From Natronorubrum bangense (GTDB lineage Archaea > Halobacteriota > Halobacteria > Halobacteriales > Natrialbaceae): a DNA stretch of 64,000 nt. The notes beneath the pieces were generated by a model. It searched no databases. It saw nothing but the letters and a program-made list of their open reading frames with translations, and was not told the DNA's origin. Shown here piece after piece: positions 55,886-62,901 of this stretch (its first letter is position 1; each line of letters begins with the position of its first letter). A program made the position numbers and the translations under genes. The stretch is taken from the NCBI RefSeq assembly GCF_004799645.1, contig NZ_CP031305.1, positions 2,542,001 through 2,606,000 on the forward strand. Reading direction: 5' to 3'.

Positions 55886-56236
55886 TCAGTCTGCCTCGAG
55901 CAGCCACCGATAGCGCGGATGAAGCCACGACCAGTCCTGCTCGACGATCCAGTCGCGAAGCTGTCTTCGGTTAGTGATTCCCGGGACAGTGTCGGCCAGT
56001 TCGGATGGCGACCCCCCTGTAACCGGCTTGTATGCGATCGATCGTGTGGCTGTACAGTAAAACGAGGCCCGCGTACAGTCGTTTTGGAGCCCGATCAGAT
56101 AGCGATTGATCTGATCCTCCCCGAGGAGATACGCACTCACTCGACCGGCGTCAAGGCCGTCGCCCTCCTGACGGACAGCCAGAATCGCCGACTCGAGATC
56201 TGTCTCGAGCTGGCGCTCGTACCCGTATCCCGGCAC
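55886..56236 (-). CDS. Haloarchaeal hypothetical protein, 116 aa
   Basis: 116 residues ending 'LHPRYRWLLEAD'. Mixed helical, with 'LAVRQEGDGLDAGRVSAYLLGEDQINRYLIGLQNDC'. No recognisable motif. It is divergent from the large actin-like gene (122-bp gap), which may be coincidence. Function unknown. Confidence 0.6.
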   Translation of the reverse strand: MPGYGYERQLETDLESAILAVRQEGDGLDAGRVSAYLLGEDQINRYLIGLQNDCTRASFYCTATRSIAYKPVTGGSPSELADTVPGITNRRQLRDWIVEQDWSWLHPRYRWLLEAD

Positions 56237-56358: not shown

Positions 56359-59166
56359 ATGGAATACGGTCTCGATATCGGTCCAGAGGCGATCCGAGCG
56401 GCTGTCGAGGCGTCAAACGGGGTGGCGATCGAATCGGTTCGTCCGATCGTCGTTCCAGCCGACGAGGAGAAAGCCGAGTCAGCAGGGACGGAAACGGGTG
56501 ATGAACTGTTCGTCGAGCAGGACGAGACGCGGTATGCGGTCGGGCCGACTGCAAAAACCCTCGCCGATGCCGAGGGTGAGACGCCTGCAACACTGTTCGC
56601 AAACGGTGTCCTGTCGGAAGCTGGGTACGCCGGACCGGCACTCGAGACGCTCGTTGACGATGTCCTCGAAATCGACGATGCAGTCGATGGGCGGCTCTGT
56701 TATACGACTCCGGGACCGCTGGTCGACGCGGACGATCCGACCGACACGCATCGCGATACTGTCGCGTCGATCCTCGCCAATCGCGGACTCGATGTCACAC
56801 CGATCAGCAGCGGGTTTGCCGTCGTCTACGACCAGTTCACTGACGACAACTACACTGGACTCGGCATCCGTCTCGGCCCCCAGACCACGAGCGTCACACT
56901 CGCATACTACGGCGTGCCTGCACTGGCGTTCTCGCTTGCAAAAGGGAGTGCGTGGGTCGTCGAACAGGCAGCCACCGAGACAGGGCACGAGCCAGCACAG
57001 GTCGAAGCCACGCTCGAGCAGTTTGCCCTCGATCCCGACGCGGCAGCAGGCGAGATCGAGGCTGCGCTTGCCGCGGCCTTCGACGCGTTGATCAGTGACC
57101 TCGCAGCAGCGCTCGAGACAGAAGCCAGCGAGAACGATGTCCAGCAAGGGTTGGCCGTCCCGGTCGCACTCGCTGGGTCGGGCGTAGTCGATGGACTCGA
57201 ATATCTCCTTGGCGGTCGGTTCGATGCGGCACCGCTGCCGTTTTCGATCCGGGGCGTGCGACTCGCCAACGATCCAGCCACAAGCGCTGCCAGAGGCGCA
57301 CTCGCGGCCGCCAAAGACGGTGTCGACGCCCACGAGGCTGTGACGTGGTCGCCAGCCGACGTGAACGACACCGGTGGCGACGTCTCCACGGCGATACCCG
57401 CACCGACCGGCGAGACGACGCTGTCGTTCGACGATCCACTCGACGACGGCACCGACACAGAGCGCGCTCGAGCGGATGCCGCGATCGATCAGCTGTTCGC
57501 CCGTCTGGCCGACCGAGACGATGAGATCCAGTCGGTTCGAGCCGACCTCGAGACAGTGTTCGACGATCTCGAGTCCATCGAAGCGGAGACGGCCAGCGCC
57601 GAGACGGTCGACGCCCTCGAGGACGACCTCGAGTCGGTCACGGACGGGCTGTCGGACCTCGAAGCCGAACGTGAGCGTTACACGAGCGACCTCGAGACTC
57701 TGGAGGGCGAACTCGAGGGCGTATCAACCGCGTACGACGCTCTCGAAGACGACGTCGATTCTCTCGAGTCGGCGCTAACAGACGATTTCGACACGCTCGA
57801 GGCGACGATCGAAACCCTCGAGACAACAACCGCGGACGAACGGGCAGCGCTCGACGATCGAATCGGCGACCTCACGGCCGATCTCGAGGCAGTTGCTGAG
57901 CGCACTGACACGCTCGGGGACCAGTTCGAACGGCTGCAGGCGTCGGTGGAGACACTCGAAGAAACAACTGCGTCAGCGACTGCCCTCGAAGCGGTCTCGG
58001 AAACGGTTTCGGAACTCGAGGCCGAACTCGACACTGTCGACCGGCACGGAATTCGAATCGACGGCCTCGCGGGCCGACTCGAGGAGCAGGCACTCCGGAT
58101 TGGCGATGTCTCGGATCGATTCACAGCCCACGCAGAGCGAGCTGACGAGGAACGTGCACAACTCGAAGGCGATCTCGAGTCGATCGACTCAACACTCGAA
58201 GACGAACTCGAGGCCGTCGATAGCGGCCTCGAGACCATCGATGAACGGGTCACCGAACTCGGTGTCGACCTCGAGGCGACGACCATGGCTCTCGAGGACG
58301 CCGAAGAGCGACTCACATCGACGGCTGGCCACGTCACGGCGCTGGACGACGAGCTGGCTGCCGTCCACGACTCGTTTCGCGACCGCACTGCCGACCTCGA
58401 GACCCGTCTCGAGACCACACAGGAGACGGTCGGTGGCCTCGAGACGACGGCAGCTGACAGCGATCGGGTGACTGCCATCGAAGCCGAACTCGCGACCCTC
58501 GAGACGGAACTAGACGATCTCACGCAGACGGTGTCGGCCGTCTCGGAGACCGTGGCTGGACTCGAGGAACGAACAGCACCCGCAGAGACGGTCGACGCCC
58601 TCGCTGCTGATCTTGACGCGATCTCAGACGACCTCGACAACCGCCTCGAGAGCGTCGATGATCGCATCGAGGCTATCACAGGGAAGCATGACGGCCTCGG
58701 CGACCGAGCCGAGCGGCTCGACGACCGGACGAGCGATCACGCGAACCGACTCGAGGCGCAACGCGAGACCATCGACGACCAAGAGAGGCGACTTGAGACG
58801 GTGCTGACCGAGGTCGACGATCTCAGGAAACTGCTCGAGGATGGCGCTGACGAGCCGGTCGAGACCCAGCTGTCGACGCTCGAAACACGTGTCGACGCCA
58901 TCGAATCAGGGCTGGAGACCAACCGGGATGACGAACTCGAGGCAATCCAAACAGCCCTTGAGACACTCCAGGATCGAATGCAGCGTCGAGAACAGACTGC
59001 GACAGACGAGACGCAGGCTGTCGTCACTCCGCTCGTTGCTGGCGGAGGCGGTGCCGGCGTCGTCGCTGGCAGTTCGCTCGTTCTCACCGGTGCTGGGGCT
59101 GTCGGTGCGGGTGCAGTCCTGCTCGGACTCGTCCTCATCGGTACTGCGGTCGCACTCGAGCGCTGA
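56359..59166 (+). CDS. Actin-like ATPase domain fused to long coiled coil and C-terminal membrane anchor
   Basis: 935 residues. Residues 1-330 have the ASKHA pattern: phosphate-1 'YGLDIGP' at 3-9, phosphate-2 'GLGIRLGPQTTSVTLAYYG' near 166-185, adenosine motif 'ALAGSGVVDGLEYLLGG' near 270-286. Residues 365-885 are an almost unbroken acidic coiled coil (Glu/Asp/Leu heptads, e.g. 'LDDRIGDLTADLEAVAERTD'). Residues 895-933 are a Gly/Ala/Val-rich hydrophobic hairpin ending 'GTAVALER'. Some related short actin homologues occur in haloarchaea (salactin, volactin by name); I cannot assign this to either. An anchored cytoskeletal or cell-shape role is inferred. Confidence 0.85.
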   Translation: MEYGLDIGPEAIRAAVEASNGVAIESVRPIVVPADEEKAESAGTETGDELFVEQDETRYAVGPTAKTLADAEGETPATLFANGVLSEAGYAGPALETLVDDVLEIDDAVDGRLCYTTPGPLVDADDPTDTHRDTVASILANRGLDVTPISSGFAVVYDQFTDDNYTGLGIRLGPQTTSVTLAYYGVPALAFSLAKGSAWVVEQAATETGHEPAQVEATLEQFALDPDAAAGEIEAALAAAFDALISDLAAALETEASENDVQQGLAVPVALAGSGVVDGLEYLLGGRFDAAPLPFSIRGVRLANDPATSAARGALAAAKDGVDAHEAVTWSPADVNDTGGDVSTAIPAPTGETTLSFDDPLDDGTDTERARADAAIDQLFARLADRDDEIQSVRADLETVFDDLESIEAETASAETVDALEDDLESVTDGLSDLEAERERYTSDLETLEGELEGVSTAYDALEDDVDSLESALTDDFDTLEATIETLETTTADERAALDDRIGDLTADLEAVAERTDTLGDQFERLQASVETLEETTASATALEAVSETVSELEAELDTVDRHGIRIDGLAGRLEEQALRIGDVSDRFTAHAERADEERAQLEGDLESIDSTLEDELEAVDSGLETIDERVTELGVDLEATTMALEDAEERLTSTAGHVTALDDELAAVHDSFRDRTADLETRLETTQETVGGLETTAADSDRVTAIEAELATLETELDDLTQTVSAVSETVAGLEERTAPAETVDALAADLDAISDDLDNRLESVDDRIEAITGKHDGLGDRAERLDDRTSDHANRLEAQRETIDDQERRLETVLTEVDDLRKLLEDGADEPVETQLSTLETRVDAIESGLETNRDDELEAIQTALETLQDRMQRREQTATDETQAVVTPLVAGGGGAGVVAGSSLVLTGAGAVGAGAVLLGLVLIGTAVALER

Positions 59167-61707: not shown

Positions 61708-62901
61708 GTGGCGTCGGACGAGTACCACCGTCGAACACTCATCACTCGCCTCACCCTCCGTAATGACGAGGATGAGCAACTGCTCCTTGACACAATCGAA
61801 GAGTGGCTCGACGGCTGCAACATCGCAAGTACCCTCGCGTGGAACACTTGCCACACCAAGTCCGACGTGCGACAACTCGCCAAACAACAAATCAAGCAGG
61901 AAACCAAGTTAGGCGACCAGCACGCCACGCTCGCCTGCCACGAAGTCGCAGGCGCAATCAAATCCTGCATCGAATGCCGCAAAAACGGAAAGAAAGCCTC
62001 ACAACCACAGTTCACAAGCCGGTCGATGACATTCGACCGCCGCACACTCACCGTCTTCCCCGACCAAGAAACGGTCACACTCACCACGCTCGGAAACCAC
62101 AGTCGCGTCCACGCTGACTTGTCTCTTCCCGAAGCCGAAGATGGATACCAGCGTGTGTATCTTGATAGTGATGAGTGGGAGTACACAGAATCCACACTCC
62201 ACTATCGAGACGGTGATTGGTACATTCATCTTGGCTATCGAACACCAAAAGAAGACGACGATTCCGAGTCACCGACCGAGAACGGAACGGTTCTCGGTGT
62301 TGATCTCGGCGTCAACCAAATCGCTGTGACGAGTACAGCTCGCTTCTTCGACGCAGATGAACTCAACCACTACCGCCGCGAGTTCGAGAAAACACGTGGC
62401 AGTCTCCAGCAGACCGGGACGCAATCCGCACACCGAACCATCGAATCCCTATCCGGCAGGGAAGAACGATACGTGAAACACGTTTTGCACAACGTGGCGA
62501 ACGGTATCATAGAAGAAGCACTCGAACACGACTGCGACGGTATCGTGTTCGAGGAGTTGGACGGGATTCGAGAGGACTTGCCAGAAGCGGCGTGGCATTC
62601 GGAGTGGGCGTTCCGCAAGCTGAAGGACTTCGTGGAGTACAAGGCGGAGTTTGAGGGCTTGTTCGTGGATACGACGAATCCTCGAAATACGTCGAAGCGG
62701 TGTAACGAGTGTGGGTTCACGCACGACGATAACCGGCACGCTGGGCAGTTCGAGTGCCAGTCGTGTGGGAGGACGAATCACGCGGATTACAATGCGGCGA
62801 AGAACGTTGCGGAGTTGTATCTCCGGCGGGGCCATCAGTCGTCCGGTCGGAGGAGCGTCAGTCAATACGCTCTGAAGTCAGGAGCGAGGACGCCGAGTTA
62901 G
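61708..62901 (+). CDS. tnpB: TnpB, RNA-guided nuclease of the IS200/IS605 group
   Basis: 397 residues, GTG start. All RuvC parts are intact: Asp in 'GVDLGVNQIAV' (about 195-205), Glu in 'VFEELDGIRED', Asp in 'HADYNAAKNVAELYL'. The zinc ribbon 'CNECGFTHDDNRHAGQFECQSC' lies between. TnpB proteins cut DNA guided by an RNA from the element's right end, and so help the element persist. The reading frame is complete, so the element may be active given TnpA in trans. Confidence 0.93.
   Translation: MASDEYHRRTLITRLTLRNDEDEQLLLDTIEEWLDGCNIASTLAWNTCHTKSDVRQLAKQQIKQETKLGDQHATLACHEVAGAIKSCIECRKNGKKASQPQFTSRSMTFDRRTLTVFPDQETVTLTTLGNHSRVHADLSLPEAEDGYQRVYLDSDEWEYTESTLHYRDGDWYIHLGYRTPKEDDDSESPTENGTVLGVDLGVNQIAVTSTARFFDADELNHYRREFEKTRGSLQQTGTQSAHRTIESLSGREERYVKHVLHNVANGIIEEALEHDCDGIVFEELDGIREDLPEAAWHSEWAFRKLKDFVEYKAEFEGLFVDTTNPRNTSKRCNECGFTHDDNRHAGQFECQSCGRTNHADYNAAKNVAELYLRRGHQSSGRRSVSQYALKSGARTPS

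Follow-up and report, generated by a model that had tools for sequence, protein, structure and literature searches.

Actin homologues of haloarchaea and their nearest counterparts

Among described proteins, the one closest to the subject of this analysis is volactin of Haloferax volcanii (VolA, HVO_2015, PF25216), which has the same kind of fold and whose family profile is matched over its full length by the N-terminal head of the protein studied here. Ordinary volactins are single-domain proteins, with open frames of mostly 326-403 amino acids (aa) and fixed NEG/DEG, GAG and GG motifs. One report describes volactin filaments that contact the membrane by their tips and calls volactin-binding factors unknown (PMC10869688), and another presents volactin as the only identified actin homologue of H. 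volcanii (PMC7617734). Salactin of Halobacterium salinarum is likewise a haloarchaeal actin homologue, in a different Pfam family (PF25229); its filaments are reported to extend from the cell poles (PMC10746226). Despite the “only identified actin homologue” wording in PMC7617734, the Salactin profile PF25229 exceeds its cut-off in H. volcanii.

The solved folds closest to the head are those of MamK and MreB. To our knowledge, both have intact ATP motifs and neither carries a coil or a C-terminal membrane tail. In layout only, the 935-aa protein resembles FtsA, in that an actin fold is combined with a C-terminal membrane element. FtsA, an actin-fold protein with a subdomain 1C and a short amphipathic helix, is the membrane anchor of FtsZ, and RodZ, whose cytoplasmic head is a helix-turn-helix, is the membrane partner of MreB. 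Both are work-alikes for the filament-to-membrane link that we propose below; as far as we know, neither one is paralogous to its filament.

An actin-like head joined to a coil and a hydrophobic tail

The window, that is, the whole stretch of 64,000 nucleotides of Natronorubrum bangense that was analysed (contig NZ_CP031305.1), holds an open reading frame at 56359-59166 (+ strand) for a 935-aa long-form volactin paralogue, meaning one that is coil-fused and membrane-tailed. Its start codon is supported by the homologue alignments, which begin at the same ATG, and the first-pass annotation of this DNA had called the frame correctly, start included.

56359..59166, + strand: whole gene, 935 aa, long-form volactin paralogue (open reading frame, Pfam match, homologues)
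56359..57324, + strand: head, residues 1-322, actin fold (PF25216 Volactin over residues 1-318; AlphaFold2; Foldseek)

Residues 1-318 of the head match positions 1-321 of the Pfam Volactin profile PF25216 with an E-value of 1.7e-117 and 393 bits, the curated cut-off being 35. An AlphaFold2 model of residues 1-347 (pLDDT 89.3, pTM 0.88) has an actin fold, and Foldseek finds its best PDB matches in MamK (E 1.4e-12) and MreB (E 1.7e-11), with only 14-18% identity in these fold alignments. The actin-like N-terminal fold first read from the letters is thus borne out by both the profile match and the predicted structure, which falls with the actin/MreB fold. Searched alone against the PDB with phmmer, the head returned nothing significant; in an hhalign comparison with E. 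coli MreB the motifs lined up at weak scores, and the head profile matched FtsA weakly (E 0.0088, over 83 C-terminal positions). Since the head belongs to PF25216, a new actin family is ruled out. An artefact of merged frames is ruled out as well, because complete long forms are open throughout in all surveyed genomes and dN/dS is well below 1. The same contig carries a canonical volactin of about 343 aa (in a 360-aa open frame) that is 34% identical over the head. The best reading of the sequence is that the 935-aa protein is a volactin paralogue that has diverged and is degenerate at the nucleotide site.

The nucleotide site and subdomain IB

To describe this degeneration, we compared 58 long forms with 23 canonical volactins and give site residues in canonical volactin numbering; subdomain boundaries are our own assignment, inferred from MreB and from the strands of the model.

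56368..56397, + strand: phosphate-1 region, residues 4-13, GLDIGPEAIR; Asp kept, canonical Thr9 replaced by Pro (alignment)
56461..56583, + strand: residues 35-75, assigned to subdomain IB, the least conserved part of the head (alignment, conservation)
56806..56814, + strand: residues 150-152, SSG where canonical volactins have NEG, Glu152 replaced by Ser (alignment)
56869..56889, + strand: phosphate-2 region, residues 171-177, RLGPQTT in place of canonical SFGAGMT (alignment)
57172..57186, + strand: adenosine region, residues 272-276, AGSGV in place of canonical TGGT/AGGS (alignment)

The first-pass annotation had seen all three ASKHA motifs. An alignment of the three regions is indeed possible, but judged by sequence their key residues have degenerated: E152 and G276, each present in 23/23 canonical volactins, occur in 0/58 long forms, and G176, again 23/23 in the canonical set, is kept in 6/58 and lost in 52. 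The substitutions in the 935-aa protein are T9 to P, E152 to S, S172 to R, G176 to Q and G276 to S, with the result that the canonical-invariant positions E152, G174, G176 and G276 read S, G, Q and S. In the alignment with E. coli MreB, which scores weakly but in which the motifs align, E152 falls in the “EEP” loop, and the other invariant positions belong to the second phosphate loop and the adenosine loop. The head is least conserved in subdomain IB, where conservation among long forms is 0.43, compared with 0.76-0.80 in IIA and IA-3. This subdomain is shortened to 14, 14 and 1 residues in the homologues L041, L048 and L053, and partly in L119, so that most of IB is gone in three sequences from two lineages (L041/L048 and L053). 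Given that volactin-invariant site residues are lost across the long family and that some members lack most of IB, the label “ATPase” is doubtful, and ATP hydrolysis by the long form appears unlikely. Nucleotide binding is still possible, since the first phosphate-binding Asp, D6 (kept in 56/58 long forms), and T178 are conserved.

The coiled coil and the membrane tail

57325..57456, + strand: linker of low confidence, residues 323-366, in which W330 and F357-D358 are conserved (AlphaFold2, homologue conservation)
57457..59001, + strand: acidic coiled coil over residues 367-881, with a heptad period of 3.50 and a net charge of about -113 (periodicity, AlphaFold2)
57478..57525, + strand: conserved coil start, residues 374-389 (homologue alignment)
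59017..59157, + strand: hydrophobic Gly/Ala-rich membrane tail, residues 887-933 (hydropathy, conservation, homologue tails)

Hydrophobic residues within 366-880 recur with a period of 3.50 at a power of 3.7, against a maximum of 1.7 in 500 shuffles, and this stretch carries a net charge of -113 and only 2 prolines in 515 residues. The near continuous acidic coil that had been placed at about residues 365-885 therefore holds at 367-881. In the full-length AlphaFold2 model these residues form helix with five short breaks, at a pLDDT of about 50-79; overall confidence is low (pLDDT 65), so that the model supports helix but no particular arrangement. Matches of the coil to SMC, Rad50, FlaC and others were judged to be generic coiled-coil similarity, because they are confined to the coil, are short and mostly fail to reach the curated cut-offs.

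The Gly/Ala-rich hydrophobic C-terminus was also recovered as previously described, with a Kyte-Doolittle mean of 2.38 in the 19-residue window at 915; residues 887-910 are hydrophobic too, though less strongly. Hydropathy and a conserved turn suggest that the tail probably consists of two hydrophobic segments around a short turn, as a hairpin; the AlphaFold2 model has helix for the second segment only. Across homologues, the parts most conserved outside the head are the coil start, with near-invariant A375, I376, L379, F380, R382, R386, D387 and E389, and the glycine pattern of the tail, with invariant G895, G897, A899, G900, V902, G904, G911 and G916.

Distribution and genomic context of the long forms

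The three-part layout of head, coil and membrane tail, sought among homologues, recurs in 58 of them (575-1313 aa). A hydrophobic tail is present in all 55 whose stop codon falls on the contig, and heptad periodicity was found in each of the 27 tested. The joining of an actin fold to a long coil and a membrane tail is therefore real and conserved, and neither of the two findings that the first-pass annotation named as fatal to the idea, a head without the actin fold or homologues without the coil, was made. Within the host family (Natrialbaceae), covered by a survey of 61 related genomes, 26 of 37 genomes have a long form, in one case split at contig ends. All 26 also carry canonical volactin, and about 10 host-family genomes have canonical volactin and no long form. 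A survey of the order (195 genomes) found long forms in 25, namely 19 of the host family and six from three other families, one of these six matches being partial; canonical volactin is present in all 25, a co-occurrence for which shared ancestry is a confounder. Among the named carriers are Natronorubrum, Natrinema, Haloterrigena, Natrialba, Halovivax, Halopiger, Natronococcus, Haloarchaeobius and Halorubellus. Outside the order, the matches in a survey of the phylum (148 genomes) are all short, with open frames of 326-371 aa where the match is full length. A plasmid search gave four matches at 33% identity that resemble ordinary volactin, and a phage search one weak match. Separately, a 190-kb contig classed as viral (IMG/VR IMGVR_UViG_3300042261_002269) encodes a 346-aa homologue of the ordinary Volactin type at L156:2875-3912 (E 4.2e-66), which keeps the NEG motif, has GSG in place of GAG and lacks a coil or tail.

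A profile search for PF25229 Salactin gave no match anywhere in the Natronorubrum bangense genome, with H. volcanii matching as the control, and Salactin is absent from all 37 host-family genomes, with or without a long form. Volactin is thus the sole ordinary actin filament found in these genomes, and the idea that the long form substitutes for salactin is unsupported within the host family.

Long forms differ from ordinary volactins by the added coil and membrane tail, by the lost motif residues and also by the absence of an adjacent DUF7139 gene. A DUF7139-like gene lies close upstream in 31/33 haloarchaeal canonical loci, compared with 0/32 long-form loci, a count in which several canonical loci are short stretches with the neighbour only partly visible. 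In Natronorubrum bangense itself, the DUF7139 membrane protein (L002:494-1396) is encoded directly upstream of canonical volactin and is a candidate general volactin partner. At another locus (L066:6165-6624, genome G049), a DUF7139-like N-terminal part is in frame with about the last 105 volactin residues, as in a deletion product, and genome G187 has three canonical volactin copies on contigs C3, C4 and C5, of which two score alike and one is split into two frames. The long-form gene shows no linkage to the gene for volactin. Its position is marked by conserved flanks, MOSC upstream and an MFS transporter downstream, and no conserved operon partner was found among the neighbours of the long-form loci. 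Just upstream, a small divergent ORF at 55886-56236 (- strand, 116 aa), which has no Pfam match, is present in five long-form loci only. Further along the window, at 61708-62898 (+ strand), lies a 397-aa TnpB-like ORF with PF07282 and PF01385.

A possible link between volactin filaments and the membrane

What could such a protein do? Our preferred reading, held tentatively and somewhat short of an even chance, is that this degenerate volactin paralogue links volactin filaments to the membrane, docking on them and bridging the distance with its rod. The tail would sit in the cytoplasmic membrane; the coil could dimerise to give a rod with a length of at most about 75 nm (515 residues amount arithmetically to about 76 nm if they form one continuous helix); and the head would bind to volactin filaments, most probably at one end or close to it, and without an ATP cycle of its own. 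The contact side would be the conserved IIA/IA end, while IB, which normally occupies the opposite face, would be free to change or be lost. In this way, the long form may anchor or seed filament ends at the membrane. We favour docking and anchoring on the basis of PF25216 membership, the canonical copy on the same contig, the constant co-occurrence, the conserved layout and the site losses; further support comes from the conservation of IIA and IA-3 as opposed to the loss of IB, from the dN/dS of head and coil, and from the lack of salactin in the host family. Against it stands H. volcanii, which anchors volactin tips with no long form reported, so that tip anchoring there needs something else, perhaps the DUF7139 membrane protein. 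This, together with the host-family genomes that lack a long form, the missing linkage to the volactin gene and the confounding of the co-occurrence, keeps our confidence in docking below even.

Rather unlikely, in our estimate, is a scaffold in which coil and tail space, stiffen or organise the membrane and the head is a dimerising or partner-binding knob unrelated to volactin filaments. The coil is the largest part and the one that varies most in length (about 155-875 aa), the gene has no linkage to volactin, and the head evolves fast: across 231 genome pairs, canonical volactin averages 95% identity and the long-form head 56%, which makes the distances of the head about 11 times as large, all of which would suit a scaffold. 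However, constraint is stronger on the head than on the coil, with dN/dS in 15 close pairs of 0.14-0.32 and 0.26-0.42, respectively, values that indicate purifying selection and a gene maintained in head and coil alike; the head keeps many invariant residues, and long forms are never found without canonical volactin. In an unrooted tree, 57 long and 23 short rows are split by one branch with support of 100/99, and the 935-aa protein does not group with ordinary volactins. Because the tree is unrooted and may be affected by the fast evolution of long forms, we leave the duplication undated.

A membrane-tethered filament that polymerises by itself, in line with the earlier suggestion of a membrane-tethered filament or spacer, is a further alternative. 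If the heads polymerised with ATP, the coils would space the filament from the membrane; the actin fold of the head is closest to the polymerising MamK and MreB, the first phosphate-binding Asp is mostly retained, and membrane-anchored actin homologues can polymerise, as FtsA shows. Set against this are the lost E152, G176 and G276 equivalents, the near-complete loss of IB in several members and the bulky coil on each subunit. We regard self-assembly as improbable, and as less likely than docking and anchoring, given the nucleotide-site and IB losses. Least probable of all is a membrane-bound brake, in which the degenerate head caps or co-assembles into volactin filaments, shortens them at the membrane and limits growth sites: it draws on the same family evidence as the anchor and on the idea that an IB-less subunit could present only one binding face, yet nothing here separates it from an anchor and no regulatory linkage was found at long-form loci.

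Returning to the anchor, its evolutionary form would be a duplicated filament protein in which the ATP cycle was lost and to which a rod and a membrane tail were added, and whose present role is to hold volactin tips at the membrane or to seed them there, a history that is possible but doubtful. The locus had initially been put forward as an undescribed system. What stands is a new architecture within a known cytoskeletal family; the head belongs to the named family Volactin, so that the system is not a wholly separate one. The volactin and salactin literature searched, of which coverage was incomplete, contains no mention of a coil-fused volactin form in the parts available. The long form is a natural example of an actin-type head stripped of several nucleotide-site residues, and, if it binds volactin, it would be a concrete candidate molecule for tying archaeal actin to the membrane.
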